A stretch of 64,000 nucleotides of DNA from Mycobacterium senriense (GTDB lineage: Bacteria; Actinomycetota; Actinomycetes; Mycobacteriales; Mycobacteriaceae), in NCBI RefSeq assembly GCF_019668465.1, contig NZ_AP024828.1:372001-436000 (forward strand), read 5' to 3'. Positions 30,287 to 60,229 of the stretch are shown here, piece after piece. Both the position numbers and the translations under genes were made by a program. The first letter of the stretch is position 1; the number at the start of each line of letters is the position of its first letter. A model generated the notes under the pieces. It searched no databases, was not told the origin of the DNA, and saw only the letters and a program-made list of their open reading frames with translations.

Positions 30287-30331
30287 GTGGCGACCCCCTG
30301 CGACCGGCCGTGCCGCTCTTGCGATCGCCAC
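30287..30331 (-). repeat. 45-bp dispersed palindromic repeat, copy A
   Basis: Arms GTGGCGA and TCGCCAC enclose 31 bp and GCGATCGC is present. It sits in the 61-bp gap between ppk2 and the DUF6912-type gene, ending 2 bp before the ppk2 stop triplet. It is the most diverged copy inside the loop. Confidence 0.8.
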
Positions 30332-30333
30332 GG

Positions 30334-31212
30334 CTAGATCAGCGTGGCCGCGTAGTCGACATACGTCGACAGCTCACGCGCCGGGCGCTGGTAGTTGCCA
30401 CTGACGACGGGATGCGCAGGCAGCTTGACCTTGGGCGTCTCGACATCGCGGTAGGGGACGGTGGATAACAAATGGGCCATCATGTTCAGTCGGGCGTGCT
30501 TCTTGATATCGGACTCCACGACATACCACGGACTCGCCGGGGTGTCGGTGTGCACCATCATCTCGTCCTTGGCGCGTGAATAGTCCTCCCACCGGTATAC
30601 CGATTCCAGGTCGATCGGGGACAGCTTCCATCGCCGGACCGGGTCATTCAGCCGTGCTTTGAACCGGCGCAGCTGTTCGGCCTCGGAGACCGAGAACCAG
30701 TATTTGCGCAGCAGAATCCCGTCATCGGTGAGCATCTGCTCGAAGATCGGCGTCTGCCGCAAAAACAGCGCATACTCCTGCGGCGTGCAGAACTCCATGA
30801 CTTTCTCGATGCCCGCCCGGTTGTACCACGACCGGTCGAACAGCACGATCTCGCCTTTGCTGGGTAAATGGGCGATGTAGCGCTGGAAATACCACTGACC
30901 GCGTTCGCGATCTGTCGGCACCGGCAGTGCGGCTATCCGTGCAACGCGTGGGCTGAGGTATTCGGTAACCCGTTTGATGGCACCGCCCTTGCCCGCGGCA
31001 TCACGACCTTCGAACAACACCACCAGCCGCGCCCCGGACTGCCGCAGCCACTCCTGCAGCTTCACCAATTCCGTTTGCAGCCTGAACAATTCGGCGTCGT
31101 AGACCTCATCGGAGATCCTGGGCACAGTCGGCCCCGCCGACTTCTTCTTGCTCGGCTTCGCCGGCGCGCCATCACGTTTCGCGGTGCTCACAGAAACGAA
31201 TACTAGCCCCAC
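30334..31212 (-). CDS. ppk2: polyphosphate kinase 2 family enzyme
   Basis: A 292-residue PPK2, like Rv3232c. Walker A is GRDAAGKGG (69-77), Walker B/lid FDRSWYNR (125-132), and RYIAHLP, YWFSVSEAEQ and VVESDIKKHARLN are family signatures. PPK2 makes GTP or ATP from polyphosphate and NDP. The N-terminal 30 residues are basic and disordered. GTG 31212 aligns with the M. tuberculosis start, but GTG 31191 is equally possible as neither has a clear ribosome-binding site. Confidence 0.93.
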   Translation of the reverse strand: MGLVFVSVSTAKRDGAPAKPSKKKSAGPTVPRISDEVYDAELFRLQTELVKLQEWLRQSGARLVVLFEGRDAAGKGGAIKRVTEYLSPRVARIAALPVPTDRERGQWYFQRYIAHLPSKGEIVLFDRSWYNRAGIEKVMEFCTPQEYALFLRQTPIFEQMLTDDGILLRKYWFSVSEAEQLRRFKARLNDPVRRWKLSPIDLESVYRWEDYSRAKDEMMVHTDTPASPWYVVESDIKKHARLNMMAHLLSTVPYRDVETPKVKLPAHPVVSGNYQRPARELSTYVDYAATLI

Positions 31213-31232
31213 GCAGGGGTTTTCAACGCCGA

Positions 31233-32654
31233 CTAGGACCGGGAGGCCTCCAGCAGTTCTTCGAGCGCCTGGTTCAGCAGTCCGGGCAGCAGCTCGACAT
31301 CGCTCATGGCTTCGCGATCGGCGTTGATTCCGTAATAGAGCTCACCGTTATACGACGTCACGCCGATGGCCAGCGCCTGATTGTGCAGCAGCGGCGGCAC
31401 CGCGTAGGTCTCCAGCAGTTTGGTGCCGGCGACGTACATCTGCGACTGGGCGCCCGGGGCGTTGGTGATGAGCAGGTTGAACGTGCGCTTGGAGAAGCTC
31501 GGGAAACTGGTCGCCACCCGGATGCCCATGGCGTGCAGCGTCGGTGGGGCAAAACCCGACAGCGTGACGATGGTCCTGGCGTCGACCAACTGGGCGGCCG
31601 TCGGGTTCGACTCGGTGGCGTGCGCGATCTGCGACAGCCGCACCACGGCATTGGGCTCCCCCACCGGCAGGTCGACCAGGAACGGCATCACCTGGCTGAT
31701 CGCCTGTCCGGGGCCGCTCGCGTCGAGGTCGCCGTTGGCGTACACCGACAGTGGAGCCATCGCCCGCACCGTCGCGGTCGCCGGGGCCGCCACCCCACGC
31801 GACATCAGCCAGTTACCCAGCGCGCCGGCGATGACCGCGAGCACCACGTCGTTGACGTCGCAGTCATACCGCGCACGCACGGTGCGATAGTCGTCGAGGC
31901 TGCCCCGTGCGACGGTGAAGCGCCGGTGACGCGACACGGTGGCGTTGAGCGGGCTGCTGGGCGCGGTGCCCCGGGTCACGGTGCGCACGAAATCGACGGC
32001 CCGGCGGCCGGCGTCGAGCAGCTCGCCGTGGTTGGTCACCAGCCCACCGATCATCGAGCCGACGGCCTGCAGCTGCGCGCCCGGTCCCGTGAACCATTCG
32101 CCGACCGCGCCCAGCATCAGCCGGGTGTACCCAGGGTCACGCTCCGGTACCCAGATGTCCTCGGGAAAGGGTGCCGGGCGTTTGGTCCGGTCGGCGATGA
32201 CGTGATTGATCTCCAGCGCCGACATGCCGTTGATCAGCGCCTGGTGCGACTTCGTGTAGAGGGCGACCCGGTTCTTGGACAGTCCTTCGACCAGGTACAT
32301 CTCCCAGAGCGGCCGGGACTTGTCCAGTGGTCGTGCGGCCAGCCGCGCGATCAGTTCGTGCAGCTGCTCGTCGCTGCCGGGCGAGGGCAGCGCCGAGCGG
32401 CGCACGTGGTAGGTGATGTCGAAGTCGTTGTCGTCGAGCCACACCGGCCGGGCCGTGCCGACCCGCACCTCGCGCACCTTCTGCCGATAGCGCGGTATCT
32501 GCGGCAGCCGCTGTTCGACGGTGGCCAGCAGGGTCTCGTAGCTCAAGCCGGCACGCGGGCGGCGCAGGATCGACAGCGATCCGACGTACATGGGGGTGGC
32601 CGTGTTTTCCAGCCGGTAGAACGACGCGTCCGACGGCGACAAGCGACTCACCAT
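31233..32654 (-). CDS. tgs3: WS/DGAT-type O-acyltransferase (Tgs3-like)
   Basis: A 473-residue wax ester synthase/diacylglycerol acyltransferase with LDKSRPLWEMYLVEGL (110-125), the condensation motif and VNDVVLAVIAGAL in the second half. The HHxxxDG motif reads H137-Q-A-L-I-N142-G, so the second His and the Asp are replaced. In M. tuberculosis this locus is two ORFs (Rv3233c/Rv3234c); here it is one intact gene. A triacylglycerol or wax ester role is expected from the family but needs care given the motif. AGGAGG lies upstream of the ATG. Confidence 0.87.
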   Translation of the reverse strand: MVSRLSPSDASFYRLENTATPMYVGSLSILRRPRAGLSYETLLATVEQRLPQIPRYRQKVREVRVGTARPVWLDDNDFDITYHVRRSALPSPGSDEQLHELIARLAARPLDKSRPLWEMYLVEGLSKNRVALYTKSHQALINGMSALEINHVIADRTKRPAPFPEDIWVPERDPGYTRLMLGAVGEWFTGPGAQLQAVGSMIGGLVTNHGELLDAGRRAVDFVRTVTRGTAPSSPLNATVSRHRRFTVARGSLDDYRTVRARYDCDVNDVVLAVIAGALGNWLMSRGVAAPATATVRAMAPLSVYANGDLDASGPGQAISQVMPFLVDLPVGEPNAVVRLSQIAHATESNPTAAQLVDARTIVTLSGFAPPTLHAMGIRVATSFPSFSKRTFNLLITNAPGAQSQMYVAGTKLLETYAVPPLLHNQALAIGVTSYNGELYYGINADREAMSDVELLPGLLNQALEELLEASRS

Positions 32655-32853
32655 GCGGCGCTGTCCTCCTGGTCACTTCGTCGCGTGCGTTGGTGCAAAG
32701 GGCCCGATGTCCCGCCCACGGTAATCGCCTGAGCCGTGCGCTAGTCAGCGCGGGTACGCGTGCGGTCGAGTTGTGCCATGATGGCCACTGACTAACCACT
32801 GTCTGCCCCTCTCCAGCAGGCTCCCGGTCCGGCCGAAGAGTTGGAGAGTGCGC

Positions 32854-33408
32854 GTGAACACTGGTCCCGTTGCGAATCCATCTGACGCTTTCACCGTCAT
32901 ACCACTGATTGATTACGAGCCGCCGGCGCAGGAGGTTTCGCGCACCGTCGCGCCGTGCCGGCCATCGTCGCGTCCCCCGTCGCGCCGCGGCAGCAGCCAC
33001 GCGCCGCCGCGTTCCTACACCGGGCAGCCCAGCAGGGCGCCGGATCCGGGCGCGGTCATGTCTCCGCGACTGCGTCAAGCGGCCGTCTTCGCCGACGCGG
33101 CGCTGCGCCGGGTGCTGGAGGTCATCGATCGCCGCCGGCCGGCGGCCCAGTTGAATCCGATGTTGGCGCCGAGCCTGGTGGATTCGGTAGCCGCGGTTGG
33201 CCGTTCGGCCGCGGGCCGTAACCGAGGCGCCGCGGTGTTGCGCCGCATGCGGCTACAGGCCGCAGGTCACCGCGACCCGGACTCGGCGGCCGAGGTCTTC
33301 GGTTCCTACAGCCGCGGGAACCGGATCCACGCCATCGCCTGCCGGGTCGAGCAGGTCAGCGCCGCGGGCGGCACCCGGTGGATGGTGGTGGCCCTGCACA
33401 TCGGATGA
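32854..33408 (+). CDS. Rv3235-family conserved hypothetical
   Basis: A 184-residue protein. A Pro/Arg/Ser-rich, probably disordered N-terminus (about 1-70) is followed by a compact helical and beta domain (SPRLRQAAVFADAALRRVLEVIDRRRP, then EVFGSYSRGNRIHAIACRVEQV, MVVALHIG). It aligns with Rv3235; the family is often encoded next to secA1 in actinobacteria. GTG 32854 is preferred over GTG 32848 because GGAGA is spaced 6 bp from it. No enzyme motif is seen. Confidence 0.72.
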   Translation: MNTGPVANPSDAFTVIPLIDYEPPAQEVSRTVAPCRPSSRPPSRRGSSHAPPRSYTGQPSRAPDPGAVMSPRLRQAAVFADAALRRVLEVIDRRRPAAQLNPMLAPSLVDSVAAVGRSAAGRNRGAAVLRRMRLQAAGHRDPDSAAEVFGSYSRGNRIHAIACRVEQVSAAGGTRWMVVALHIG

Positions 33409-33421
33409 CGGCGGCCACCGG

Positions 33422-34579
33422 TCAGGCCGCCGGCGCGGCGCCGGCCGGGCGCGGACCACCCGTGTAGCGGGTGAGGATGGGTCCCGCAATCGCCATGATG
33501 AAAACGTAGGACGTCGCCAGCGCCGCGACCGCGGGCAGCGACTTGCCGGCCAATCCGATGATGATCAACGAGAACTCGCCGCGTGCGATCAGCGCGGTGC
33601 CCGCGCGCAGCTGCCCGCGCCGCGCCACCCCGTCGTGCCGCGCGGCGAAGATCCCGGTGGCCACCTTGGTCGCCGCGGTCACCGCGGCCAGAACCAGCGC
33701 CGCCGGAAGCATCGGGACCAACTCGTGTGGGTCCACCGAGTAGCCGATCGCCAGGAAGAAGATGGCGGCGAACAGGTCGCGCAGCGGGCTCAGCACCTGA
33801 CGGGCCCGCTCGGCCGTCTCGCCGGTCAGGGTCAGGCCCACCAGGAACGCGCCTACCGCGGCCGAGGCGTGCAGGGACTCCGCCACCGCCGCCACGATCA
33901 GGGTGATGCCCAGGACCCGGAGCATCAGCTGTTCGGAGTCGGGGTGTTGCACGAGCCGCTCTACGTGGTGACCCCACCGGTAGGACGCGGCGAACGCCGC
34001 CACCAGGGCGCCCACCGCCACGGCCATGCCGCCCACAGCGTGCAGCCATCCGCCGCCCGACGCCAGGACCGCGAAGAGCGGCAGATACGCGGCCATCGCG
34101 AAGTCTTCGAGCACCAGTACCGACAGCACCGCCGGCGTCTCCCGGTTGCCGAGCCGCTGCAGGTCCTCCAGCAGCCGTGCGATGACGCCCGAGGAGGAGA
34201 TGTAGGTGACGCCGGCCAGACACAGGATGGCCACGCCGTCCAATCCCAGTAGCCAGCCGGCGATCGCGCCGGGCGCGGCGTTGAGCACGATGTCCACGGC
34301 CGCCGACGGCAGGTGGTGGCGCATGCTGGAAGAGAATTCGGCCACCGAGAACTCGCAGCCCAGGGTCAGCAGCAGCAACACGACGCCGATGGGCGCGCTG
34401 GTGGTGATGAACTGGCCGCCTGCGGCCATCGGCAGGATGCCGCCGTTGCCCAAGGCCAATCCCGCCAGCAGGTACACGGGGATGGGCGACAACGCGAATC
34501 GCCTTGCGGCGGCGCCCAATACGGCCAGAGTGGCCAGGAGGGCGCCGAGTTGCAAAAGCAGCGTCCCCGAAATCTGCAC
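33422..34579 (-). CDS. CPA2-family cation/proton antiporter (KefB-like)
   Basis: A 385-residue membrane protein with about 11 helices and the Na+/H+-exchanger fold: PVYLLAGLALGNGG, LLLLTLGCEFS, VLEDFAMAAYLPLFAVL and AFLVGLTL, plus GTALIARGEFSL. It corresponds to Rv3236c. It starts at GTG, 4 bp after the regulator gene for a KhtT-type subunit, and lacks the C-terminal RCK domain of true KefB. It probably exchanges K+ or Na+ for H+. Confidence 0.9.
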   Translation of the reverse strand: MQISGTLLLQLGALLATLAVLGAAARRFALSPIPVYLLAGLALGNGGILPMAAGGQFITTSAPIGVVLLLLTLGCEFSVAEFSSSMRHHLPSAAVDIVLNAAPGAIAGWLLGLDGVAILCLAGVTYISSSGVIARLLEDLQRLGNRETPAVLSVLVLEDFAMAAYLPLFAVLASGGGWLHAVGGMAVAVGALVAAFAASYRWGHHVERLVQHPDSEQLMLRVLGITLIVAAVAESLHASAAVGAFLVGLTLTGETAERARQVLSPLRDLFAAIFFLAIGYSVDPHELVPMLPAALVLAAVTAATKVATGIFAARHDGVARRGQLRAGTALIARGEFSLIIIGLAGKSLPAVAALATSYVFIMAIAGPILTRYTGGPRPAGAAPAA

Positions 34580-34583
34580 CGGC

Positions 34584-35066
34584 TCAGCCTTTGTCGATAA
34601 TCTTCTCGACGCCTGCGATGCCGTCTTCGGTGCCGATCACGATCAGAACGTCTTGGACGTGCAGCATCTCGGCGGGTCCGGGTGAGGCGAGCACTTGCTC
34701 GTTGCGCACGATCGCCACGATGGATGCGCCGGTACGGGTGCGCGCCCGGGTGTCACCCAGCGGGTGATCCACGAAGGGGCTGCCGGCCAGGATGTGCACC
34801 TGGCCGGTCTCGAGCCCGGGGACCTCGCTGGCCAGCTCGGTGAATCGCTCCGCGATCCGCGGCGCACCCAGGATCTGGGCGACGGCCTCGGCCTCCTGGT
34901 CGTTGAGGTGCAGCAGCGGCCGGGCCTCGTCCGGATCTTCGCGGGCGTACACGACGACATCGAAATCGCCGCTGCGCCGCGCGATGATGCCGATGCGGTC
35001 GCCCCTCTGATCGGTGAATTCGTAGCGAAGACCGACCCCGGGGAGCAACACCTCCTTGACATCCAT
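34584..35066 (-). CDS. KhtT/TrkA-C regulatory subunit of the cation antiporter
   Basis: A 160-residue cytosolic protein: an N-terminal KhtT-like domain (about 1-70, LPGVGLRYEFTDQRGDRIGII) and a C-terminal RCK_C domain (about 75-160, ending VQDVLIVIGTEDG). It matches Rv3237c. Such subunits gate a partner CPA2 antiporter in response to ligand or pH. It lies 4 bp upstream of the antiporter gene in the same operon. Confidence 0.88.
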   Translation of the reverse strand: MDVKEVLLPGVGLRYEFTDQRGDRIGIIARRSGDFDVVVYAREDPDEARPLLHLNDQEAEAVAQILGAPRIAERFTELASEVPGLETGQVHILAGSPFVDHPLGDTRARTRTGASIVAIVRNEQVLASPGPAEMLHVQDVLIVIGTEDGIAGVEKIIDKG

Positions 35067-35122
35067 ACGTCAATCCTGACAGGTCGCCGGGCGCTGCCGA
35101 AAGCGGATGAACGCAAAGATGC

Positions 35123-35896
35123 TCAGCCCGGGGCGGGCCGGCCGGCCGGCCGGCTGGGGCCGCCGCGCGGCCGGCGCCCTAGCGGTAGCAACCTCGGTAC
35201 CTCGCGGCGGTAGCTGAGATAGTCCTCGCCGAGCGCCTCCACCAGGTCGTGTTCCTCGATCCGGGTGGCGACCAGGATGTAACCCGTCATGGCTATGGAG
35301 AACAGCAGATGCCCGGCCGTCATGGTGGGGGCCGCCCAGAAGGCGATGATGAAACCGAGCATGAGCGGGTGGCGTACCAGCCGGTAAAGCATCCGAACGT
35401 GAAAAGCGATGTGTGTGTACGGTTTTCCCCGCCACGCCAGATACACCTGCCGGAGCCCGAACAGGTCGAAATGGTTGATCATGAACGTCGACGCCAGGGC
35501 GATCACCCAGCCGAGCCAGAACAGCGTCCACAACACCAGGCGCCCGGCCGGTAGTTCCACCTTCCAGATGACGGCGGGCATCGTTCGCCATTGCCAATAC
35601 AGCAGCACCAGCACGGCGTTGGACAGCATCACGTATGTGCTGCGCTCTATCGACGACGGCACCACCCGCGTCCACCACGCCTTGAACCCGGGGCGCGCCA
35701 TGACGCTGTGCTGCAGGCCGAACACCGCGAGCAGCACCATGTTGATCAACACGGCCTGGCCGATGGGCGCCGACAGCCCACGGTCGACCGTCCGCGGCAC
35801 CCAGAAGTTGCCGACGAACGCGACAAGGTACAGAAATACGGCAAGAAAGAGCAGATAAGCGGCCACGCCATAGCCGACCGTCAGGTAACGCTTCAT
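35123..35896 (-). CDS. NnrU/MddA-type membrane S-methyltransferase
   Basis: A 257-residue protein with five or six helices, matching Rv3238c. The C-terminal HVRMLYRLVRHPLMLGFIIAFWAAP and EEHDLVEALGEDYLSYRREVPRLLP segments are those of the isoprenylcysteine-methyltransferase-like superfamily, in which MddA methylates methanethiol to dimethylsulfide. I recall the M. tuberculosis homologue being linked to this activity, so the call is likely but rests on homology. The tail is Pro/Arg/Gly-rich. It is divergent from the ABC gene across a palindrome-rich region. Confidence 0.78.
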   Translation of the reverse strand: MKRYLTVGYGVAAYLLFLAVFLYLVAFVGNFWVPRTVDRGLSAPIGQAVLINMVLLAVFGLQHSVMARPGFKAWWTRVVPSSIERSTYVMLSNAVLVLLYWQWRTMPAVIWKVELPAGRLVLWTLFWLGWVIALASTFMINHFDLFGLRQVYLAWRGKPYTHIAFHVRMLYRLVRHPLMLGFIIAFWAAPTMTAGHLLFSIAMTGYILVATRIEEHDLVEALGEDYLSYRREVPRLLPLGRRPRGGPSRPAGRPAPG

Positions 35897-35933
35897 TTGC
35901 TGATTGTGCGCCTCATCGGCGCGCGCGCATATA

Positions 35934-36012
35934 GGTCATTTGCCTCAATTTCAGCGGGGCGAGCCCAGGCATTGTTGGCCGACCCGTCCGGTCATTTGAG
36001 GCAAACGCCTCA
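35934..36012. promoter_or_regulatory. repeat and palindrome cluster between MddA-type and ABC genes
   Basis: GGTCATTTG occurs at 35934-35942 and 35990-35998. TTTGCCTCAA (35939-35948) has its complement TTGAGGCAAA at 35996-36005. TGAGGC-AAAC-GCCTCA (35997-36012) is a perfect palindrome. The cluster sits in the 187-bp divergent promoter region and looks like a multi-site operator. Confidence 0.5.
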
Positions 36013-36083
36013 TGCGGCGGCTCGAGCGCTGGACCGATGATCGGCCGTGACAGGCCCACATCGAGAAAGCACGGAGACGGATC

Positions 36084-37805: not shown

Positions 37806-37806
37806 C

Positions 37807-39357: not shown

Positions 39358-39464
39358 GAAACTCGTCCCTTTCTCGGCCACTCATCGGCGCGGCGTCGGT
39401 ATAGCCACACAAAAGCCGATGCCTGATAAGCCTAGGGCATGGGCGTTGCTGCCGGGTCGCTGTC

Positions 39465-39524
39465 GCCGAGTGTGAAGTTAGGCGCACGCTCGCCGCCGAG
39501 CGTGAAGATAACTTCACACTCGGC
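39465..39524. repeat. inverted-repeat cluster downstream of secA1, probable terminator
   Basis: GCCGAGTGTGAAGTTA (39465-39480) has its exact complement at 39509-39524, and a near copy GCCGAGCGTGAAG lies at 39496-39508, adjoining it. In the leftward direction the inner pair makes a stem of about 13 bp with a 4-base loop just after the secA1 stop. No U tract follows, as is common in mycobacteria. Confidence 0.7.
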
Positions 39525-39548
39525 GCAGGGCGGCCAGGCCAGAAGCGG

Positions 39549-42377
<2,829 letters not shown>

Positions 42378-42454: not shown

Positions 42455-42497
42455 GCGGCGATCGCAAGCGCGGCAACGCCGCGCAGCGGGTCGCCGC
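42455..42497 (+). repeat. 45-bp-type dispersed palindromic repeat, copy B
   Basis: GCGGCGATCGC at the left and GGGTCGCCGC at the right; 43 bp, two bases shorter than the other copies. It lies between the hpf stop (42511) and the secA1 start. Confidence 0.75.
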
Positions 42498-42510
42498 CCG
42501 AGGACCCCGT

Positions 42511-44192: not shown

Positions 44193-44344
44193 GTGGCGAC
44201 CCGCTGCGCCCGGCTTCGCCTCGCTGGCGATCGCCACCCGATGGTGGTGACCCGCTGCGCCCGGCTTCGCCGCGCTGGCGATCGCCACTACACCCCATGG
44301 TGGCGACCCGCTGCGCCCGGCTTCGCCACGCTGGCGATCGCCAC
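44193..44344 (-). repeat. three tandem copies of the 45-bp palindromic repeat (C1-C3)
   Basis: Units at 44193-44237, 44244-44288 and 44300-44344, separated by 6 and 11 bp and each preceded by GATG or CATG. They differ at only a few positions; C2 has GTGGTGA as its left arm. Each contains GGCGATCGCCAC. The array fills the gap between lpqB and the comF-like gene, and C3 touches the lpqB stop. Confidence 0.9.
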
Positions 44345-46101
44345 TACCCGGGCAGCACCGGGGCCGCCCCGGGCACCGTCAGCCCGGGCACTTCCGACCA
44401 GCCCTGCTGACCGTCGGCCGACGGCGAATACTGCAGCACCCCTTGGGGACCCGCGACGTAGGCCGTCGACGGGTTGGCGGCCACCGTCGTCACCGGCATC
44501 TGCAAACCGTGCGGCGGAGCATCCGAGTTCACCCCGTCGATGTTCACGTAGGAGACCGGATGGCTGGCGTCGGTGCGCGTCACCACGATGTCGTCGCCGG
44601 TCCGCCACGACAGCGACACCACCGAATTGCCCAACCCGAAACCGAGCCGGCGCGGGAAGGTCAGGGCGTACTGCCCGGCCTGGGTCTGCTCGACGCTGGC
44701 GAGAATCACCTGGCCGCCGATCACCATCGCGGCGCGGGTGCTGTCGCGGGACAGCTGCAGGTCGGTGATCGGGCCCGGGAACCGGGTGGCCACCGCCACC
44801 GAATCCACCGGAAGGCGCGCGGGTTGCCCGGAGGCCGGCTCCTGGATGGCCCGCAGCACGTTGTTGCCGTCGACCACCACCCAGACCACGTCGTCCAGCG
44901 ACCAGGTGGGCCGCGACAGGTTGTGCCCGTCGGCGGCCTGCACGGCTTCCTGGCCGAGGTCACCGATCCACAGGGACGCCGCCATGTCCGGGGCGCCGCG
45001 GTGCAGCGTCACCACCGACGCCACCTGCCGGCCGGTCCGCGACAGCGCGGCGCCGGTCTGGTCCCCCACCCGTCCGAACGCGCCGGGCACCATCACGGTG
45101 TGCTGGCCGTCCAGGGACACCAGCGAGCCGTTCACCAGGGCGTGCAGCCCCGCGCCCGCGCCGTCGGCCGCGCCGGGATCGGTGGCCGCGACGTCGGAGG
45201 TGGTCCACCCGTCGCGGAACCGGTCGTCCAGCGGCGCACCGTCGGCGCTGATCACGTACGGGCCCCGGATGTCGGCCCTGGCCAGTGTCCAAATGATTTG
45301 CGCCGCAAGCAATTGCCGGCTGTGCGGATCGGTGGTGGACAGCTTCTCCAGGTCGACGCGCGCCCCGCCGTAACCGCGCCCGATGCCGCTCTTGCCGCCG
45401 TCGGCCCGGGTCACCGGCCCGCGCAGCCGCAGCGGCGGGGCGAGCAGATTGCGGACCGTGTGCGCCATCTCGGGCCGCGGTCCGCCGATCAGCTTGGAGA
45501 TCAGCTCGGTGGCCAACTGGTCGTGGTCGGGCACCGCGACGTAACGCGGGTCAGGAACCACCGTCTTGCCGGTCGGGTCGGCGAAGTAGAGCGTGTTGCG
45601 TTTGTAGGTGGACTGGAACTGCTGCCAGTCCAGGAAGACGCCGTTGGGCAGCCGGTCGATGCGCCAGCCGCCCGAGGTCTTGACCAATTCGATCGGCCCG
45701 GGGTCGGGCAGCACGCCCTCGGCGGTCTCGAACACGCCCATGTCGGACAGCGAGCCCAGCACGTCCGCCCGCATGGTCGTCGAAACCCGTTCGGCCGCAC
45801 GGGTTTCGACGAACACGACGTGGTCGATCAGCAGCGCGCTACCGGCGTCGTCCCAGGCGTTGGACGCCGACTGGGTGAGGAACTGGCGGGCGGCCAGGTG
45901 CCGGTTCGCGGGATCGGCTGTGGCCTTGAGGAATTCGCGCAGCAGCACGTCGGGGTCCATGCCCGGGGTGGGCTTGGGCAGGTTCGACGGCGCGGGCCGC
46001 TCGACGGTGCCGATGGCCTGCGGCGCCGACGAGCTGGGCACCCCCGCGCAGCCGGCGAGCAGCATGGCCAGCATCAGCAGGGGAAGAAACCGCCGCATCA
46101 C
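44344..46101 (-). CDS. lpqB: lipoprotein LpqB, accessory to MtrAB
   Basis: A 585-residue lipoprotein (Rv3244c-like). Type II signal peptide with lipobox LAGC (C18). A GerMN-like domain (about 60-200) and a beta-propeller-like C-terminal half follow. LpqB binds the extracytoplasmic domain of MtrB and tunes MtrA phosphorylation, affecting cell division and surface motility. Its ATG overlaps the mtrB TGA (ATGA), so it is translated with mtrB. Confidence 0.95.
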
Positions 46102-47774
46102 AGGGCCCTCTCGGCGTGCTCACGCTGGCGCTGACGGTCTTTGGCGTGCTGCGGGCCGGTCGGGGCGGGTTGCGGGATCGGCTTCATGGGCAGCGGGCTG
46201 GTGGTCACTTTGTGGCCGCGCACCAGCGGCAGCGTCAGCCGGAAGCACGAGCCGTCGCCGGGCTCGCCCCACGCCTCCAGCCGGCCCTGGTGCAGGCGCG
46301 CGTCCTCGATGCTGATCGCCAGGCCCAGGCCGGTACCGCCGGAGCGGCGAACCCGCGAGGGGTCGGCCCGCCAGAACCGGCTGAACACCAGCTTCTCCTC
46401 ACCCGGTCGCAGCCCGACACCGTAGTCGCGGACCGTGACGGCGACCGTGTCCTCGTCGGCGGCCATCCGGATCTTCACGGGCTTGTGCTCGGCGTGGTCG
46501 ATGGCGTTGGCGATCAGGTTGCGCAGGATGCGCTCCACCCGGCGGGTGTCGACCTCGGCGATCACCTCTTCGGTCGGCAGGTCCACCTTCAGCTCGATGC
46601 CGGCGTCCTCGGCCAGGTGTCCCACGTTGCCCAGCGCGCTCTGCACCGTGGTGCGCAGGTCGACCGCCTCGACGGACAGCTCGGCGACACCGGCGTCGTG
46701 CCGGGAGATTTCGAGCAGGTCGTTGAGCAGCGACTCGAACCGGTCCAGCTCGTTGACCATCAGCTCGGTGGAGCGCGCCAGCGTCGGGTCCAGGTCGGCG
46801 CTGTGGTCATAGATCAGGTCGGCCGCCATCCGCACCGTGGTCAACGGGGTGCGCAGTTCGTGGCTCACGTCAGAAGTGAAGCGGCGCTGCAGATTACCGA
46901 ACTCCTCCAGCTGGGTGATCTGGCGCGACAGGCTCTCGGCCATGTCGTTGAACGACATGGCCAGCCGTGCCATGTCGTCCTCGCCGCGCACCGGCATGCG
47001 TTCGGACAGGTGCCCTTCGGCGAACCGCTCGGCGATGCGCGACGCCGACCGCACCGGCACCACCACCTGCCGCGACACCAGCAACGCGATCCCGGCCAGC
47101 AGCACCAGCAGCACCGCGCCGCCGGTGATCATGGTGCCGCGCACCAGCTGGATGGTGGCCTGCTCGTTCTTCAGCGGGAAGATCAGGTACAGCTCCAGGT
47201 TGGCCACCTGAGACGACGCCGGCGTGCCGACGATCAGCGCGGGCCCGGAGAACCCGTCGGTGTGCACGGTGGCGTACTGGTAGGACGCCTGGCCCGCCTT
47301 GACGAAGCCGCGCAGGGAACCGGGCACCTGGTCGACGGGCCCGGCGGTGGTCGCGGCGCGCGGGCCGTCGCCGGGCACCATCAGCACCGCGTCGAAGGCG
47401 CCGGCCATCCCCGCACCGGAGGCCGGGTCGGTCTTGGAGGTCAGCGTGTTGCGCGCCAGCTGCAGGCTGCTGTCCAACGAGCGCGCCTCTTCGCCGTTGA
47501 CGATCCCGCCCACCGTGGTGCGTGCCCGCTCGATCTGCTCGATGGCGGCCTTTACCTTGACGTCGAGCACGCGATTGGTGACCTGACTGGTCAATACGAA
47601 GCCGAGCGCCAAAATGACCGCCAGGGACAGCCCCAGGGTCAGCGCCACCACCCGCAGCTGCAGCGAGCGCCGCCACGCAATGGCCACGGCGCGACTCACC
47701 GCGCCCATGCCACGAGTCATGGGGCCGGAGCGTCCCCAGCGGCTTCGAGTGCGTCGCCGGGAACCCCAGATCAC
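46098..47774 (-). CDS. mtrB: sensor histidine kinase MtrB
   Basis: A 558-residue kinase (Rv3245c-like): TM1 at 42-62, an extracytoplasmic domain (63-214), TM2 at 215-235, HAMP, phospho-acceptor H305 ([10 protein letters not shown]), N box [10 protein letters not shown], and G boxes DYGVGL and GGTGLGL. The last 40 residues are Pro/Lys/Gln-rich. MtrB acts at the septum and phosphorylates MtrA. Alternative starts lie near the N-terminus (M19, M23). It lies between mtrA and lpqB. Confidence 0.96.
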
Positions 47775-49275: not shown

Positions 49276-49290
49276 GGCGCGAGCCTATCG

Positions 49291-49324: not shown

Positions 49325-49333
49325 CCGGGCGGC

Positions 49334-50806
<1,473 letters not shown>

Positions 50807-50904
50807 AACGTGTTCTTCCTTTTTCGGCTCGCTCGGATCCAAGCGGTATTTAGCTTAGGTATGTTCTTGCGCCACTGTAGTCGCGGGCAGCCGCGCCTCG
50901 CGGG

Positions 50905-51591
50905 TCAGGGAACGTTGATGACGCCGTGACGCTCGGCGAACGGCGTCATCAACCGGGCCAGATCGGCCGCCACGTCATGGTCCGCCTCCGGCGGCATCGA
51001 CACGTAGCTCAGCGCCAGCCGCACGATGGCCCGCGCCAGCACCCCGGCGTCCTCGTCGCTGGTGGCCACCCAGCTGTGGGTCAGCGCCGTGGTCAGCCGT
51101 TCGGAGGCGCGGTTGATGATGGGGGCGCTGTCGGTGGTGATGAGCTGCAACAGGTCCGGCTTGGCCACGCCGGTGAGCAGCGAGATCACCAGCGGGTCCG
51201 CCGACAACTCCGTGAACAGGTCGCGGAAGCCCTGCAGGAACGCCTGAAAGATGTTGCCGACGTTGGCTTCCAGCGCGGCGTTGACGGCGTCGACCAGCCG
51301 GTCGGCCAGGCGCAGGCCGTACCCCTGCGCCAGGCCCTGCCGGGAACCGAACTCGTTGTAGATCGTCTGCCGGCTGATGCCCGCGGCGCGCGCCACGTCG
51401 GACAGGGTGACGGCCGACCAGTCCCGGGTCAGCAGCAGATCGCGCATCGCGTCCAGCACCGAGTCGCGCAGCAGGGCACGCGACGCTTCGGCGTAGGGCA
51501 TCCGCTTCACAGGCGCGACAATAGCGGCTCGGGCCCCGGAATCGGTTTTTTCGCGCACGTCGGCCTGCTCGGCAGCGTTGACTGCGATCAC
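50905..51591 (-). CDS. TetR family regulator of the alkB operon (Rv3249c-like)
   Basis: A TetR regulator of 228 residues if read from GTG 51591, which overlaps the rubB stop as GTGA; GTG 51510 or ATG 51501 would give about 200. The HTH is [25 protein letters not shown]. Last gene of alkB-rubA-rubB-tetR, as in M. tuberculosis. It probably represses the operon through the 26-bp inverted repeat at 53246-53271 and responds to alkanes or fatty acids (inference). Confidence 0.85.
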
Positions 51592-51773
51592 GAACGGGCG
51601 ATCTCCACCATCTCGAAGTCGGTCTTGGCCGCACCGCAATCCGGGCAACTCCAGTCCTCGGGGATGTCGTCCCACCGGGTGCCGGGGGCGATGCCGTCTT
51701 CCGGCCAGCCCTTGGCCTCGTCGTACTCGAATCCGCACTGCACGCAGATGAAGAGTTTGAAGTCGTCGCTCAT
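51588..51773 (-). CDS. rubB: rubredoxin RubB
   Basis: Sixty-one residues with two CxxC pairs (C10/C13 and C43/C46) that bind one iron, and the rubredoxin core [25 protein letters not shown]. It carries electrons from rubredoxin reductase to AlkB. Its ATG overlaps the rubA TGA (ATGA). Confidence 0.94.
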
Positions 51774-51943
51774 CGATTCGCTCCTATCGTTTCGAAATCG
51801 GCCTTCTCGAGCACCGCGCAATCGGGGCAGCACCAGTCTTCGGGGATGTCCGCGAAGGGCGTGCCCGCGGGAAACCCTTCCCGCGGTGCGCCTTTCGCTT
51901 CGTCGTAGGTGTAGTCGCAGCCGGGGCAGCGATATGCGCTCAC
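51770..51943 (-). CDS. rubA: rubredoxin RubA
   Basis: Fifty-seven residues starting at GTG, which overlaps the alkB stop (GTGA). Iron ligands C6/C9 and C39/C42; C38 is an extra adjacent cysteine. The core [25 protein letters not shown] is typical of the alkane hydroxylase rubredoxins. Its sequence differs enough from RubB for the two to have distinct roles: AlkG1- and AlkG2-type rubredoxins are not interchangeable in other systems. Confidence 0.93.
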
Positions 51944-53190: not shown

Positions 53191-53245
53191 ATGCCAAACC
53201 TCCTTGTGAGTCACACCACGTTGAGGTTGGACAATACCGACCTTC

Positions 53246-53271
53246 GCGTCTTCTGTCTAGACAAAGGACGC
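53246..53271. promoter_or_regulatory. 26-bp inverted repeat at the alkB promoter
   Basis: Centred on TGTCTAGACA with outer GCGTC/GACGC arms; 22 of 26 positions are symmetric. On the leftward strand, TTTACA and TAGACA are spaced 17 bp apart and overlap it. It is the best candidate operator for the TetR encoded at the end of the operon. Confidence 0.65.
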
Positions 53272-53290
53272 TAGTTTGTAAAGCGCGTGG

Positions 53291-54808: not shown

Positions 54809-54854
54809 GCATTCGCCCTTTCCCAACGCACCATTGGTCCGTCACAGTACTGGG

Positions 54855-54860
54855 TACTCT
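54855..54860 (+). promoter_or_regulatory. -10 element for a leaderless FAD-protein mRNA
   Basis: TACTCT ends 6 bp before ATG 54867, with no Shine-Dalgarno sequence between them, which predicts transcription starting at the start codon. Confidence 0.45.
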
Positions 54861-54866
54861 CCGCGA

Positions 54867-56318
54867 ATGCCGGACAGCACAGCAACGGCCAGAGACCATG
54901 CCGTGGTCATCGGGGGCAGCATCGCCGGTCTTTGCGCGGCGCGGGTGCTGTCCGATTCGTATACGCGGGTGACGATCTATGAGCGCGACGAGTTACCGGC
55001 CGAACCGGCGAACCGGGCGACGGTGCCCCAGGACCGGCACCTGCACATGCTGATGGCCCGCGGGGCCAACGAATTCGAGGACCTTTTCCCGGGCCTGCTG
55101 GACGACATGGTGGACGCCGGCGTGCTCAAACTCGAGAACCGGCCCGACTGCATTCACCTGGGCGCCGCGGGTCACGTGCTGGGCACCGGGCAGACCCTGC
55201 GCGACGAGTTCACCGCTTATGTGCCCAGCCGTCCGCACCTGGAATGGCAGTTGCGCAAAAGGGTTCGCAACCTTGACAACGTCACCGTGGCGCGCCGCTC
55301 GGTGGCCGAGCCCCGGTTCGACCGCGCGCGGCAACGGGTGACCGGCGTGCTGCTGGATTCCGCCGGCCCCGACGGCGACGACCCGGAGTTCGTCGCCGCG
55401 GACCTCGTCGTCGACGCGGCCGGCCGCGGGACCCGGCTGCCGGCGTGGCTGACGGATTGGGGATTCGAGCGCCCGGTCGAGCAGGCGGTGGACATCGGCA
55501 TTCATTACGCCACCCAGCGGTTCGCCATCCCCGATGGGCTGATCGCCGAGAAGGTGGTGGTCGCCGGCGCTTCCCATGACCAGTCGCTGGGGCTGGGCAT
55601 GCTGTGCTACGAGGACCGCACCTGGGTGCTGACCACATTCGGCGTGGCAAACGCCAAACCGCCGAGGACGTTTCCGGAGATGCTGGAGTTGGCCCGGCGG
55701 CTGCTGCCCTCCCACTTCCACGCCGCGCTGATGCGGGCCGAGCCGCTGGGCGACCCGGCGTTTCACGCCTTCCCGGCCAGCAAGTGGCGGCGCTACGACA
55801 AGCTGGACCGCCTGCCGGCCGGCATCATCGCCTTCGGCGACGCGGTGGCCAGCTTCAATCCCACCTTCGGCCAGGGCATGACGATGACCTCGCTGCAGGC
55901 CGCGCATCTGCGGCGCGCGCTGCAGTTCCCCGACGATCGGGTTGCCGCGGAACTGAATCGGGCCACCGCAAAGAGCACCTTCCCGGTGTGGATGATGAAC
56001 GCGATCGCTGACGTCACGTTCCACCATGCCGGCACCAAGGGGCCGATCCCCTGGTGGTGGCGGCCCTCAGGTGGCCTGTTCGATCAGTTCCTGGGCGCCG
56101 CGGAGACCGAACCCGTTCTGGCGGAATGGTTTCTGCGACGGTTCTCGCTGCTCGACAGCCTCTATTTGGTTCCGCCGCCGCGGATCATCGGCCGCGCGAT
56201 GGCGCACAACCTGCGGCTATGGCTCAGCGAACGGCGCGACGCCGCCAAACGGCGGCGGGCCGTGGCGATCGCAAGCGTGGCGCAGCCGGGCGAAGCGGGT
56301 CGCCACCATCAGAGCTAG
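54867..56318 (+). CDS. FAD-dependent oxidoreductase (Rv3254-like) with repeat-derived C-terminus
   Basis: A 483-residue flavoprotein. The dinucleotide site is VVIGGSIAGLCAARVL (13-28), GGSIAG replacing GxGxxG. A DAAGRGTRLPAWL segment is near 187 and AFGDAVASFNPTFGQGM near 322 contacts FAD. The family resembles geranylgeranyl-reductase/monooxygenase-like proteins. The last 19 residues (AVAIASVAQPGEAGRHHQS) are encoded by a copy of the 45-bp dispersed repeat, so the native C-terminus is probably shorter. Substrate unknown. Confidence 0.85.
   Translation: MPDSTATARDHAVVIGGSIAGLCAARVLSDSYTRVTIYERDELPAEPANRATVPQDRHLHMLMARGANEFEDLFPGLLDDMVDAGVLKLENRPDCIHLGAAGHVLGTGQTLRDEFTAYVPSRPHLEWQLRKRVRNLDNVTVARRSVAEPRFDRARQRVTGVLLDSAGPDGDDPEFVAADLVVDAAGRGTRLPAWLTDWGFERPVEQAVDIGIHYATQRFAIPDGLIAEKVVVAGASHDQSLGLGMLCYEDRTWVLTTFGVANAKPPRTFPEMLELARRLLPSHFHAALMRAEPLGDPAFHAFPASKWRRYDKLDRLPAGIIAFGDAVASFNPTFGQGMTMTSLQAAHLRRALQFPDDRVAAELNRATAKSTFPVWMMNAIADVTFHHAGTKGPIPWWWRPSGGLFDQFLGAAETEPVLAEWFLRRFSLLDSLYLVPPPRIIGRAMAHNLRLWLSERRDAAKRRRAVAIASVAQPGEAGRHHQS
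56262..56306 (+). repeat. 45-bp dispersed palindromic repeat, copy D
   Basis: GTGGCGATCGC at the left and GGGTCGCCAC at the right, followed by CATC. It lies wholly within the reading frame of the FAD protein, immediately before its stop. Confidence 0.88.
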
Positions 56319-56320
56319 CC

Positions 56321-57547
56321 TCACAGCCCAACCGTCGCCCTGAACAGCTTGGTGGGTTCGTGCGCGACCAGCCGGATCGGGGCGTCGTCGGCGGCCACCC
56401 ACGCGGCCATCCCCCGCTTCAGCGTCAGCGACCCGGACTTGCCGCACACCGTCGTGGAACCCTGGCTGCACAACAGGATCTGCGGACCGTCGTGGCTGCA
56501 CGTCGCGTCCACCTCGTGGCCGACGTACTCGTCGTCGAGCTCCAGCAGCGCGACGGCGAACTCGTCGGCCTTGGTCTCATAGATCAGCCCGAAGCCCTCG
56601 CGACGGATGCGCGGCCGCAGCTGCTCCTCGGTGGTGGGGGTGAAGTCCAGCACCCGCAACAGCTCGGGCACGTCGACGTGCTTCGGGGTCAGGCCGCCAC
56701 GTAACACGTTGTCAGAGTTGGCCATCACTTCCACCGCGAAGCCCCGCAGGTAGGTGTGCAGGTTGCCGGCGGAGACGAAGATGGCCTCGCCGGGCGCCAG
56801 GCTGACGCGGTTCAGCAGCAGTGCCGCCAGCACGCCCGCGTCACCGGGATAGCGTTCGCCGAGCTCGAGCACCGTCTTGGCCTCGGCGGCGAATTCGGTT
56901 GCCCCCGAACTGAGGTAGGCGATGGCGCCGTCCAGCACGGCCGTCACCAGCACGTCGATGTCGGGCTGCGGGGCGGTGATCCAGGTGGTGAACAGCGCGC
57001 GCAGACCGTCGGCGTCGGACTGGTCGTTCAGCAGATCGATGTAGGGGTCGAGGTCGGAGACGGCCAGGGCCCGCAACAACTCGACGGTGCGCGAGGCCTG
57101 CCGGAATCCGGCCAGCGCCTCGAACGGGTGCAGCGCGACCAGCAGCTCGGGCTTGTGCGACATGTCGCGGTAGTTGCGCACCGGCGAGTTCAGCGGGATG
57201 CCGACCCGCTCCTCGCGCATGTAGCCCTCGGCCGCCTGCGCGGCGCTCGGGTGGGCCTGCAGGGACAGCGGCTCGTCGGCGGCCAGCACCTTCACCAGGA
57301 ACGGCAACACGTCGCCGAAGCGCGCCCGCGACACCGGTCCGAGCTGTCCCTCCGGGTCCTCGCCGAGCGCCTCGAGCAACGTGATTTCGCCGTTGTCCGT
57401 CTCCAGCCACGCCGGATCGCCGGGGTGCGCCCCGAACCAGAGCTCCGCCTCGGGGTGCGCCGCCGGCACCGGACGCTCGGTGAATTCGGCGATGGCAGTA
57501 CGCGAACCCCAGGCGTACGTTCTCAAGGCACCGCGAAGCAGTTCCAC
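56321..57547 (-). CDS. manA: mannose-6-phosphate isomerase
   Basis: A 408-residue zinc enzyme (Rv3255c-like) interconverting fructose-6-P and mannose-6-P. Ligands: Q97 and H99 (LQAHPS), E134 (HKPE) and the His of GNLHTYLRG near 264. It feeds GDP-mannose for PIM, LM/LAM and glycolipids. It starts at GTG, 8 bp after the SIS gene, and converges on the FAD gene with a 2-bp gap. Confidence 0.94.
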   Translation of the reverse strand: MELLRGALRTYAWGSRTAIAEFTERPVPAAHPEAELWFGAHPGDPAWLETDNGEITLLEALGEDPEGQLGPVSRARFGDVLPFLVKVLAADEPLSLQAHPSAAQAAEGYMREERVGIPLNSPVRNYRDMSHKPELLVALHPFEALAGFRQASRTVELLRALAVSDLDPYIDLLNDQSDADGLRALFTTWITAPQPDIDVLVTAVLDGAIAYLSSGATEFAAEAKTVLELGERYPGDAGVLAALLLNRVSLAPGEAIFVSAGNLHTYLRGFAVEVMANSDNVLRGGLTPKHVDVPELLRVLDFTPTTEEQLRPRIRREGFGLIYETKADEFAVALLELDDEYVGHEVDATCSHDGPQILLCSQGSTTVCGKSGSLTLKRGMAAWVAADDAPIRLVAHEPTKLFRATVGL

Positions 57548-57555
57548 TGTTGTAT

Positions 57556-58656
57556 CTATCCCCGCACCAGTCGCATATAAACCGCGGCCATTTCCAGCCG
57601 GACGGCCAATACTGCCAGTTGCTGCTCGGGGCTACCGGGGCCCCCCAGCGCCGGCGAAACGCCGTAGCCGGCCGCGCCGCCGGGCCCGTCGGGGACATCC
57701 TCGGCGGCGAGCAGGTAGACGTTGTCCAGCCCGGCGGTCCGGGCGGCCACGGCCGCCTGGTCGGCCGCCAGAACGACGGCCAGCACCCGCAACCGCGCCG
57801 GCAGCGGGCCGTCGATCTCTTCGTCGTGAAACAGGGCGGCGTCGGGATCCTCGAAGCCGTCCGACGCCGCGCCGTGCAGCGCCACCAGCGCGTCCGACAG
57901 CCCGGTAGCCGGGGTCACCTGGTTCGCGACCCGCAACAGCACCGAGCTGCCGTGCCGGGCCAGAGCCAACGTCGCGGCGCCGTCGCCCGCCAGCGCCACC
58001 TGACGCTCGGCGATACGCGCGGCCAGCAGCTTGGCCGGATTGGTGAAAAGCTCGCGGGCGGCGCTGTTACGCAGCGCCTCGGCGTCCAGCTCATCGGCGA
58101 GCAACCCCAGGTGGACGGCCGGTCGCGGATCCAGGGCGTGCACCACGGCCAGTCCGGCCGCCAGATACCGGCACAGCCCGAATTCGTCGGGAACCGACAG
58201 CCGGGGCGCCAGTACCGCCGCGCGCCCGGCGGTGGCGTCTCGCAGCGGGCCTTCATAGGGCGCCGTCACCACCACCCGGGCGCCGCGGCGCAACCCGGTG
58301 TCGGCCGCTGCGGCCAGCGCGGGATCGCCCGCGTCGCCGCCCGCGACGACCAGCACATCGAGCGGACCCACCCACGGCGGTGCCTCGTTGGCGACAGTGA
58401 AGGGCTGGGAAGCGGTTCCACCCATGGTCGCGGCCAGCATCGTTCCGGCGGTCTCGGCGGTTCCGCGGCCGGCCACCCAGATGATGCTGCGCGGACGGTC
58501 GTCGGCGCGCAGCGGATCCAGCGCACCCTCGGCGACCGCGGTGGCGATCGCCCGCACCTGGGCACCGGCCGACGACGCGGCGCGCAGCAGGCCGTCGCGG
58601 TCGGCGCCCAGCAGGCCCTCGGTGTCCTCGAGATCGATCGCCTGGGTGGCGTTCAC
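57556..58656 (-). CDS. SIS-domain protein, phosphoglucose/mannose isomerase-like (Rv3256c)
   Basis: A 366-residue protein, sometimes annotated TobH. IIWVAGRGTAETAGTMLAATMGG and VGPLDVLVVAGGDAGDPALAAAADTGLRRGARVVVTAP form a SIS-type sugar-phosphate fold, and the C-terminus resembles the bifunctional phosphoglucose/phosphomannose isomerase C-terminal domain. GTG overlaps the manB stop (GTGA). Its place between manA and manB implies sugar-phosphate metabolism, but activity is unproven. Confidence 0.8.
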   Translation of the reverse strand: MNATQAIDLEDTEGLLGADRDGLLRAASSAGAQVRAIATAVAEGALDPLRADDRPRSIIWVAGRGTAETAGTMLAATMGGTASQPFTVANEAPPWVGPLDVLVVAGGDAGDPALAAAADTGLRRGARVVVTAPYEGPLRDATAGRAAVLAPRLSVPDEFGLCRYLAAGLAVVHALDPRPAVHLGLLADELDAEALRNSAARELFTNPAKLLAARIAERQVALAGDGAATLALARHGSSVLLRVANQVTPATGLSDALVALHGAASDGFEDPDAALFHDEEIDGPLPARLRVLAVVLAADQAAVAARTAGLDNVYLLAAEDVPDGPGGAAGYGVSPALGGPGSPEQQLAVLAVRLEMAAVYMRLVRG

Positions 58657-60050
58657 GGCGCGGCCCTCACGCCAGCCGTCATCGCGGTGATCTCGGCACT
58701 GATCTGGGCGACCACCGCGGTCACGTCCTCGGCCGTGCGGGCCTCCACGTTCAGCCGCAGCAACGGCTCGGTATTGGAGCTGCGCAGGTTGAACCAGCTG
58801 CCGTCGCCCAGGTCGGCCGTCACCCCGTCGACGTGGTCGAGGGAGTGAATCCGGGTGCCGAACGACTTCAGCACCGCCTCGGTGCACTGCCCGGCGTCGG
58901 AGACGGTGAAGTTGATTTCGCCGGACGATTCGTAGCGCTGGTAGTCCGCGGTCACCTCGGACAGCGGGCGATCCTGCTCGCCGAGGGCGGCCAGCACGTA
59001 CAACGCCGCCAGCATCCCGGAGTCGGCGCCCCAGAAGTCGCGGAAGTAGTAGTGCGCCGAATGCTCACCGCCGAAGATGGCGCCGGTGTCGGCCATCAGC
59101 GCCTTGATATACGAGTGGCCCACCCGGGACCGCAGCGGAGTGCCGCCGCGCTCGGCGACGAGTTCGGGCACCGCGCGCGAGGTGATCACGTTGTGGATGA
59201 TCGTCGCGCCGATCTCCCGGCCCAGCTCGCGGGCGGCCACCAGACTGGTCACCGTCGACGGCGACACGGCGTTGCCGCGTTCGTCGACCACGAAGCAGCG
59301 GTCGGCGTCGCCGTCGAAGGCCAGCCCGATGTCGGCGCCGGTCTTGCGCACATAGGCCTGCAGGTCCACCAGGTTGGCGGGGTCCAGCGGGTTGGCCTCG
59401 TGATTCGGAAACGAGCCGTCGAGCTCGAAGTACAACGGCTCCAACGTGATCGAGCCGATCGGGCCGAGCACGGCGGGCGTGGTCAGACCGGCCATGCCGT
59501 TGCCGGCGTCCACGGCCACCCGCAGCGGGCGCAGCCCGGAGGTGTTCACCAGCGAGCGCAGGAACTGGCCGTAGTCGGCCAGCACGTCGCGATCGCTCAC
59601 GCTGCCCGGTTCCCCGTTGTAAACCTCGACGCCGGCGATCACGTCCTCGGCGACAAGGCGCAGGCCGGTCTCGGCTCCGACCGGTTTGGCCCCCGCCCGG
59701 CACAGCTTGATGCCGTTGTAGGCCGCCGGGTTGTGGCTCGCGGTGAACATGGCGCCGGGGCAGTCCAGCAGCCCGGAGGCGAAGTAGAGCTGATCGGTGG
59801 ACGCCAGGCCGATGCGCACCACGTCCAGTCCCTGGCCGATCACGCCGGCCGCGAACGCGGCGGCCAGCGTGGGCGAACTGTCGCGCATGTCGTGGCCGAT
59901 CACGACCTGGCCGGCGCCCTCGCCGCGCACGAGTTTGGCGAACGCTGCGCCGAGATCGGTGACCAGCGGCTGGTCGAGCTCTTCGCCGACTAGCCCACGC
60001 ACGTCGTAAGCCTTGACGACACGGTGGACAGTCGCGGCGGGCCGAGACAT
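58653..60050 (-). CDS. manB: phosphomannomutase/phosphoglucomutase
   Basis: A 465-residue alpha-D-phosphohexomutase (Rv3257c-like, also called pmmA). Phosphoserine S105 (TASHNP), Mg loop DGDADR (246-251), substrate motif GGEHSAHYYF and phosphate loop RSSNTEP are intact. It converts mannose-6-P to mannose-1-P for GDP-mannose. First gene of manB-SIS-manA. Confidence 0.95.
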   Translation of the reverse strand: MSRPAATVHRVVKAYDVRGLVGEELDQPLVTDLGAAFAKLVRGEGAGQVVIGHDMRDSSPTLAAAFAAGVIGQGLDVVRIGLASTDQLYFASGLLDCPGAMFTASHNPAAYNGIKLCRAGAKPVGAETGLRLVAEDVIAGVEVYNGEPGSVSDRDVLADYGQFLRSLVNTSGLRPLRVAVDAGNGMAGLTTPAVLGPIGSITLEPLYFELDGSFPNHEANPLDPANLVDLQAYVRKTGADIGLAFDGDADRCFVVDERGNAVSPSTVTSLVAARELGREIGATIIHNVITSRAVPELVAERGGTPLRSRVGHSYIKALMADTGAIFGGEHSAHYYFRDFWGADSGMLAALYVLAALGEQDRPLSEVTADYQRYESSGEINFTVSDAGQCTEAVLKSFGTRIHSLDHVDGVTADLGDGSWFNLRSSNTEPLLRLNVEARTAEDVTAVVAQISAEITAMTAGVRAAP

Positions 60051-60176
60051 GCGGGACTCCTGACGACGTGAACTCTTGGCCGTCAGCCTATCGGGCTACG
60101 GAGAACTCGAGCCCTCGCGGTGCGTGGGGATTTCACGTCCGGCCGGTCAGGGCCACCATTGCCACCCGCATGGCTC

Positions 60177-60221
60177 GTGGCGATCGCAAGCGCGGCGCAG
60201 CCGGGCGCAGCGGGTCGCCAC
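60177..60221 (+). repeat. 45-bp dispersed palindromic repeat, copy E
   Basis: Same arms, orientation and length as copy D, followed by CATCTGG. It lies between manB and the DUF3499 gene, 8 bp from the DUF3499 stop codon. Confidence 0.88.
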
Positions 60222-60229
60222 CATCTGGA

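Follow-up and report, generated by a model that had tools for sequence, protein, structure and literature searches.

A 64,000-nt window of the Mycobacterium senriense genome (contig NZ_AP024828.1, positions 372,001-436,000; assembly GCF_019668465.1) holds seven copies of a palindromic repeat whose family is, in our judgement, probably a miniature mobile element, non-autonomous and about 48 bp long. The element would consist of an ATG and, directly after it, an imperfect hairpin of 45 nt, duplicate its target upon insertion and prefer sites resembling CTAGNCC. We observe differences between genomes with and without the element, local duplication at some of the sites, a nested copy and compensated base pairs in the stem.

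A dispersed family of imperfect hairpins

All seven copies proposed by the initial annotation are present exactly where it placed them (Table 1); they align without gaps apart from a 2-nt gap in the copy at 42455, and the consensus GTGGCGACCCGCTGCGCCCGGCTTCGCCGCGCTTGCGATCGCCAC lies near all of them. Some details of that description needed amending. Six copies share the proposed length of 45 nt, while the copy at 42455-42497 has 43 nt; the outer arms GTGGCGA/TCGCCAC are exact in five of the seven, with GCGGCGA/TCGCCGC at 42455 and GTGGTGA at 44244; and of the suggested boundary tetranucleotides, CATC or GATG, the latter precedes the hairpin (in element orientation) in four of the seven, the others having GATT, CATG and TCGG. 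The bases at the foot of the hairpin, ATG, do however belong to the element.

We trained a covariance model (R1) on the seven window copies, which leaves the remaining genome as an independent test. The scan of the whole genome (5.83 Mb, three contigs) returned 104 matches at E ≤ 10, of which 97, at 67 sites, passed our threshold for a copy (E < 0.01), and 90 of these lay outside the set used to build the model. The family thus extends well beyond the seven copies, to at least 97 in this genome, a lower bound because scoring was limited to 150 initial candidates and missed short variants. Nor do the copies behave as chance matches: R1 gives them 65-75 bits in the unfiltered window, against 17.5 for the best match outside the copies and their reverse strands. 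As the initial annotation had it, this is a dispersed palindromic family found in both orientations, with 30 sites on the + strand and 37 on the - strand.

The unit is an imperfect hairpin of 45 nt with inverted ends GYGGCGA...TCGCCRC that form a 7-bp outer stem. It is preceded by ATG in 56 of the 97 copies, most commonly as GATG (46/97) and next as AATG (7), and its common context is CTAGNCC upstream and TAG downstream. In the model-fitted alignment of 82 distinct copies, 92.1% of stem cells pair, and 45 stem cells are altered on both sides compared with 15.2 in shuffles; at pair 2-47, TA (39) and CG (27) predominate. Within the window, Rfam gave no match at gathering score.

Empty sites, filled sites and target duplication

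At three sites (486661 and 1288977 in the genome, and 44193 in the window), some relatives that lack the element at the orthologous position, here called empty, hold a single CTAGNCC-like word, and in the filled form such a word stands on either side of ATG plus hairpin, with 7-8 nt shared by the two sides. Writing [H] for the hairpin and G plus a number for the genomes of relatives, site 486661 in our genome reads CTAGTCCCG-ATG-[H]-TAGTCCCGGGCGTG, and the empty sites read CTAGTCCCGTGCGTG in G062 and CTAGTCGCGGGCGTG in G075 and G007. Site 1288977 reads CTAGGCCCG-ATG-[H]-TAGGCCCG-ATG-[H]-TAGGCCCG, with CTAGGCCTCGG in the empty G062, and at 44193 the empty G017 and G075 have CTAGCCCGGCAGC and the filled G064 has C-TAACCCG-ATG-[H]-TAACCCG-ATG-[H]-TAACCCGGCAGC. 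Since ATG is absent from these empty sites, it must be part of the element. The variable base N of the word also fits in empty sites at 486661 (G062, G064, G075, G007, G047), 44193 (G017, G075) and 1288977 (G062); at the first of these, CTAG is followed by the same base in G062, G075, G007 and G047, and G064 has CTAA. At window site 60177, CTAG is present in the empty G054, G045, G001 and G017.

Across the genome, the flanks are duplicated in at least six of seven bases at 14 of the 67 sites, compared with 2.3 in shuffles (largest value 8 in 500), and a stricter earlier test gave 7/67 against 0.45. TA stands on both sides at 13 sites, and N agrees in nine of them where 4.5 would be expected (p 0.005), although one of the nine (416193) has a doubtful register. 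A test at fixed offset gave a weak signal (z 2.0 at offset 11, 1.4 at 10, and an unexplained 4.2 at 14), probably because spacer length varies. Copy 4133282 is nested in another, otherwise near-complete copy with GGCC duplicated, and copy 2879633 adjoins a truncated copy, between TGAACGCGA and TAAACGCGA. We read these patterns as transposition with a target duplication that later decays.

On this reading, insertion would favour a pre-existing CTAGNCC-like word and duplicate some 7-8 nt of it (TAGNCC[C]G), giving the product C-TAGNCCCG-ATG-hairpin-TAGNCCCG; because the hairpin ends in C, this C and the following TAG would re-form CTAG on the right-hand side. The element would be moved in trans by an enzyme encoded elsewhere, for which a DDE type is a guess from the target duplication alone. 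The duplicated flanks could subsequently misalign, amplifying word and element together into head-to-tail arrays. The preference for CTAG would spare genes and often place the element at stop codons, where the hairpin would probably either serve as a structure at the 3' ends of mRNAs or simply be tolerated as one, which would explain why the stem has stayed paired. The element would thereby resemble bacterial miniature inverted-repeat transposable elements (MITEs), which are likewise short, have terminal inverted repeats (here the 7-bp outer stem), duplicate their targets and are presumably moved in trans. It differs from them in having ends made unequal by the ATG and in that no parent with shared ends was found in its own genome, and 48 bp is very short for a MITE.

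Several observations weigh against this interpretation. The unequal ends are unusual for a DDE element, and the end patterns led to no transposase or full-length parent in the genome itself, where a diverged parent may still exist. Fewer than six of seven bases are duplicated at 53 of the 67 sites, 33 have no ATG before the first unit, and 32 have no intact CTAG nearby. At 1288977, CTAG is followed by a different base in the empty G064, G001, G045 and G047 and is missing from the empty G054 and G052; at 486661 it is missing from several relatives (e.g. G023, G010, G063), and at 44193 from the empty G054. Among the remaining window sites, no empty relative has CTAG at 30287 or 42455, and G017 is the only one with it at 56262. 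Moreover, at 486661 the element is present in G001 and G054 yet absent from G062, G064 and G075, and the empty sites could be losses, because duplicated flanks permit precise removal through misalignment; the change at each site may have run in either direction.

The search with end patterns gave 37 left-end and 17 right-end matches, 12 of them unpaired, and ten of these were read as candidates for an autonomous parent, the two at 2774974 and 3137837 being outside the ten. Six of the ten lie in predicted genes (L273, L274, L275, L277, L281, L282). The other four are shorter or cut-down hairpin relatives with similar ends, at positions 2273408, 2463203, 3906579 and 5298369 of contig G000:C1 (L278, L279, L280 and L276, respectively); CTAG follows three of them and CTAGGCCCGATG precedes one, and a subfamily of shorter hairpins may exist. 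In the G062 orthologue (L194) of window site 42455, the hairpin is replaced by some 86 nt of different sequence containing a long inverted repeat, which may belong to a second palindromic family that uses this location.

Gene ends, arrays and alternative explanations

The initial annotation had located the copies between genes or at their 3' sides, and this largely holds genome-wide: 58 of the 67 sites fall outside predicted genes, often at 3' ends. Genes here are those of a simple codon-usage gene finder rather than a curated annotation (55 genes in the window, covering 84% of it). Seven of the nine sites that overlap a predicted gene do so near its 3' end, one near a predicted start and one inside. 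Among the 58 intergenic sites, 48 adjoin at least one predicted stop codon and ten adjoin gene starts only. The stop codon of a convergent gene uses the last C of the hairpin at 19 sites, the stop of the upstream gene lies 6-8 nt before the hairpin at 11, and one or the other arrangement is found at 27.

This placement can be explained by the target word, since genes contain little CTAG, which is more frequent at stop codons and past them. In the window the word occurs 38 times, in part next to the copies themselves, where base composition predicts 194; ten are stop codons, 18 are intergenic and ten lie inside genes. In 34 kb from element-free genomes at seven loci, six were intergenic and one was in a gene. 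The distribution of CTAG can thus by itself account for the position at stop codons.

The placement could also suggest that the repeat is a hairpin with a function, as RNA or as DNA, at the 3' ends of genes, a terminator or mRNA 3' stabiliser kept by selection with mobility playing a minor part. Although we consider this unlikely, it is consistent with the scarcity of sites inside genes, the contacts with stop codons and the covariation of the stem. The predicted stability of the RNA points the same way: among 64 distinct copies only four have the element strand as the more stable one, and its mean is -21.8 kcal/mol against -26.4 for the reverse strand. The reverse strand is also the one that a convergent gene reads where its stop codon adjoins the hairpin. 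The difference in stability fits a 3'-end role, with the qualification that the copies are related, and the counts of G-U versus A-C cells in the stem (15 to 28) are at most suggestive of the reverse strand being the one under selection. A run of T is almost absent, however, with at least five T within 10 nt after the hairpin at 1/67 sites on one strand and 0/67 on the other. Mycobacterial terminators may do without such a U tract. The ten sites next to gene starts only are not what a 3'-end function would predict, the distribution of CTAG in the window is enough to predict the placement at stop codons, and selection alone can neither copy 45 nt between loci nor create flank duplications. A role at mRNA 3' ends, judged from the sequences, is nevertheless plausible.

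A hairpin at gene 3' ends also recalls TRIT, reportedly a conserved structured motif at M. tuberculosis gene ends (Gardner et al. 2011, RNIE) and said to be enriched there, which would favour the functional explanation. Our element resembles TRIT and intrinsic terminators in lying by stop codons and differs from them in lacking the U tract. This TRIT model of Gardner et al. is named in the available text of PMC3526491. The TRIT motif may include the present element, an identity that we guess from the description of TRIT and not from its sequence.

The 67 sites comprise 50 single copies, eight pairs, seven triples and two five-unit arrays. The 17 arrays are all direct, with a period of 51-57 nt (56 nt in 16 of 30 steps), and identity within arrays reaches 97.8% (43 pairs) against 85.1% between sites (1553 pairs), which argues that arrays grow locally. 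At 44193, unit number varies among relatives: three in our genome, two each in G064 and G052, a full unit plus a shortened one in G001, and none in G054, G017 and G075; G045 holds 938 nt of other sequence there and G062 is rearranged. The arrays were ruled out as CRISPR on inspection, their spacers being 6-12 nt long and near-identical within an array.

The regular period, the local homogeneity and the variable unit number would suit a minisatellite unit of about 56 bp, similar to the mycobacterial interspersed repetitive unit (MIRU), whose spread would need no more than slippage and chance recombination. This explanation seems improbable to us, as most sites are single-copy and as insertion is needed to account for the nested copy and for flank words that are specific to each locus. 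The MIRU of M. tuberculosis is an interspersed unit of about 50-80 bp that forms tandem arrays and inserts at overlapping stop and start codons; our element differs from it in being a hairpin with a CTAG target and mostly in single copies. The 23-mer of a published repeat primer (primer 3), which we take to be MIRU-like, has no match in the window at up to three mismatches, the query being a likeness and not an authentic MIRU reference.

That primer belongs to a set designed for repetitive-element PCR (rep-PCR) of M. intracellulare ATCC 13950 and published in 2023 (PMC10117815). The initial annotation knew of no named mycobacterial family with this sequence, a statement that has to be revised in view of this set: primers 1, 2, 4 and 5 are letter-for-letter pieces of the element (GATG with the 5' arm, the 3' arm, and two variants likewise present here). 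According to the available text, each primer matches from more than 31 to 63 loci, primer 2 is reported from M. tuberculosis, M. kansasii, M. avium and others, and the repeats, unlike in our description, are treated as separate repeats inside genes, with the palindrome, unit, target and mobility going undescribed in that part. Within the portions covered of the open-licence PMC literature, we found no prior description as a mobile palindrome. Stem-loop families Myt-1 and Myt-8 of M. tuberculosis appear in the consulted part of PMC2267715, and fragments of the element sequence occur in six papers, PMC10117815 and one on M. leprae (PMC2753549) among them.

A repetitive extragenic palindrome (REP), or the paired form known as REPIN, moved by a REP-associated tyrosine (Y1) transposase (RAYT) is very improbable and largely refuted, despite the short imperfect hairpin, the common tetranucleotide at its 5' foot and the roughly 100 mostly extragenic copies, because PF01797 has no match in the genome and occurs in 11/64 carrier and 15/84 non-carrier species, thus showing no association with carriage, because none of the 17 arrays is of mixed orientation, and because the target is duplicated here, whereas IS200/IS605 enzymes are described as making no larger duplications (PMC2817692, as far as available). 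The likeness to REP/BIME elements drawn by the initial annotation fails on the same points, and the tetranucleotide itself differs, being GATG in place of the REP head GT(A/G)G that this source, which also treats IS200/IS605 features, places at the 5' foot of the hairpin. Its comparison with HIP1 of cyanobacteria finds no clear support either, the octamer GCGATCGC belonging to the hairpin's 3' arm. By itself the octamer is mildly over-abundant in the window, with 21 occurrences against 6.9 expected from dinucleotide shuffles, seven inside copies and 14 outside.

Range of the element and features of the window

The survey of the genus drew 148 sampled species genomes, with at most 42 candidates scored in each (the PF01797 survey likewise drew 148, and the two are taken as one set). 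The element is present in 64 of the 148, three of which have a single match; carriers G091 and G131 have genomes of 3.3 Mb. Sixteen genomes of other genera gave no strong match, and five of them had a single weak match (E between 1.2e-4 and 0.007). The exact consensus occurs in 31 stretches among 84,980 species genomes, all titled Mycobacterium or Mycolicibacterium, including M. kyorinense, M. celatum, M. fragae, M. shimoidei, M. terramassiliense, M. colombiense, M. europaeum and M. asiaticum. So far, then, the element has been seen only in mycobacteria. No match was found among 50,697 phage records, nor, with an exact degenerate pattern, in viral contigs, and of 72,556 plasmid records one matches, the 473-kb plasmid of Mycobacterium riyadhense (NZ_OY970457.1), at two places within 46543-46655.

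Table 1 Copies of the element in the window, with their flanks and gene context (window coordinates; flanking words of copies 6 and 7 in element orientation)
Feature	Position	Strand	Description
Copy 1	30287..30331	+	45-nt hairpin, 65.3 bits; GATT before
Copy 1, right flank			GG-CTAG; CTA is the stop codon (TAG) of predicted - strand gene 30334-31191
Copy 2	42455..42497	-	43-nt hairpin, GCGGCGA/TCGCCGC arms, 65.6 bits; between two predicted - strand genes
Copy 3	44193..44237	+	Unit 1 of three-unit direct array; TCAGCCCG-ATG before
Copy 4	44244..44288	+	Array unit 2; preceding spacer CCGATG
Copy 5	44300..44344	+	Array unit 3; preceding spacer TACACCCCATG
Copy 5, last C and following TA			Stop codon of predicted - strand gene 44344-46074
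Right-hand duplicated target word	44345..44351	+	TACCCGG; filled G064 has TAACCCG; empty G017 and G075 have a single CTAGCCCG
Copy 6	56262..56306	-	71 bits
Copy 6, gene context			Predicted + strand gene 54945-56318 runs through the copy and ends at the TAG of the target word
Copy 6, left flank	56307..56318	-	CTAGCTCTG-ATG; empty G017 has CTAGTCCTG; other empty sites without CTAG
Copy 7	60177..60221	-	75.4 bits
Copy 7, left flank	60222..60233	-	CTAGTCCAG-ATG; empty G054 has CTAGGCGAC, empty G045 has CTAGGCCGG
Copy 7, TAG of the flank			Stop codon of predicted - strand gene 60230-60616

Two further repeats were seen in the window. A separate strong inverted repeat at 39464-39525, with 29-nt arms that are 86% complementary and 4 nt between them, sits between two predicted - strand genes, and a 12-nt piece of it has no exact match in 282 fetched loci. 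Two 91-nt stretches (51635-51725 and 51817-51907), 70% alike and starting 182 nt apart, may be tandem rubredoxin genes.

One could finally speculate, as a possibility that we hold only tentatively, that CTAG serves as a safe harbour: a 48-bp hairpin, among the smallest of target-duplicating mobile elements and moved by an enzyme encoded elsewhere, would land in overlapping convergent stop codons, give each gene a stop of its own, and seed minisatellites of mycobacteria, pathogens included. If the main reading is right, mobility and a target rule belong to a repeat previously encountered only as primer sites, or possibly as a terminator motif, and this rule would explain its position at gene ends and suggest an origin for some mycobacterial tandem repeats. 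The direct route to the missing enzyme would then be to look for the gene that tracks recent copies across the carrier species.

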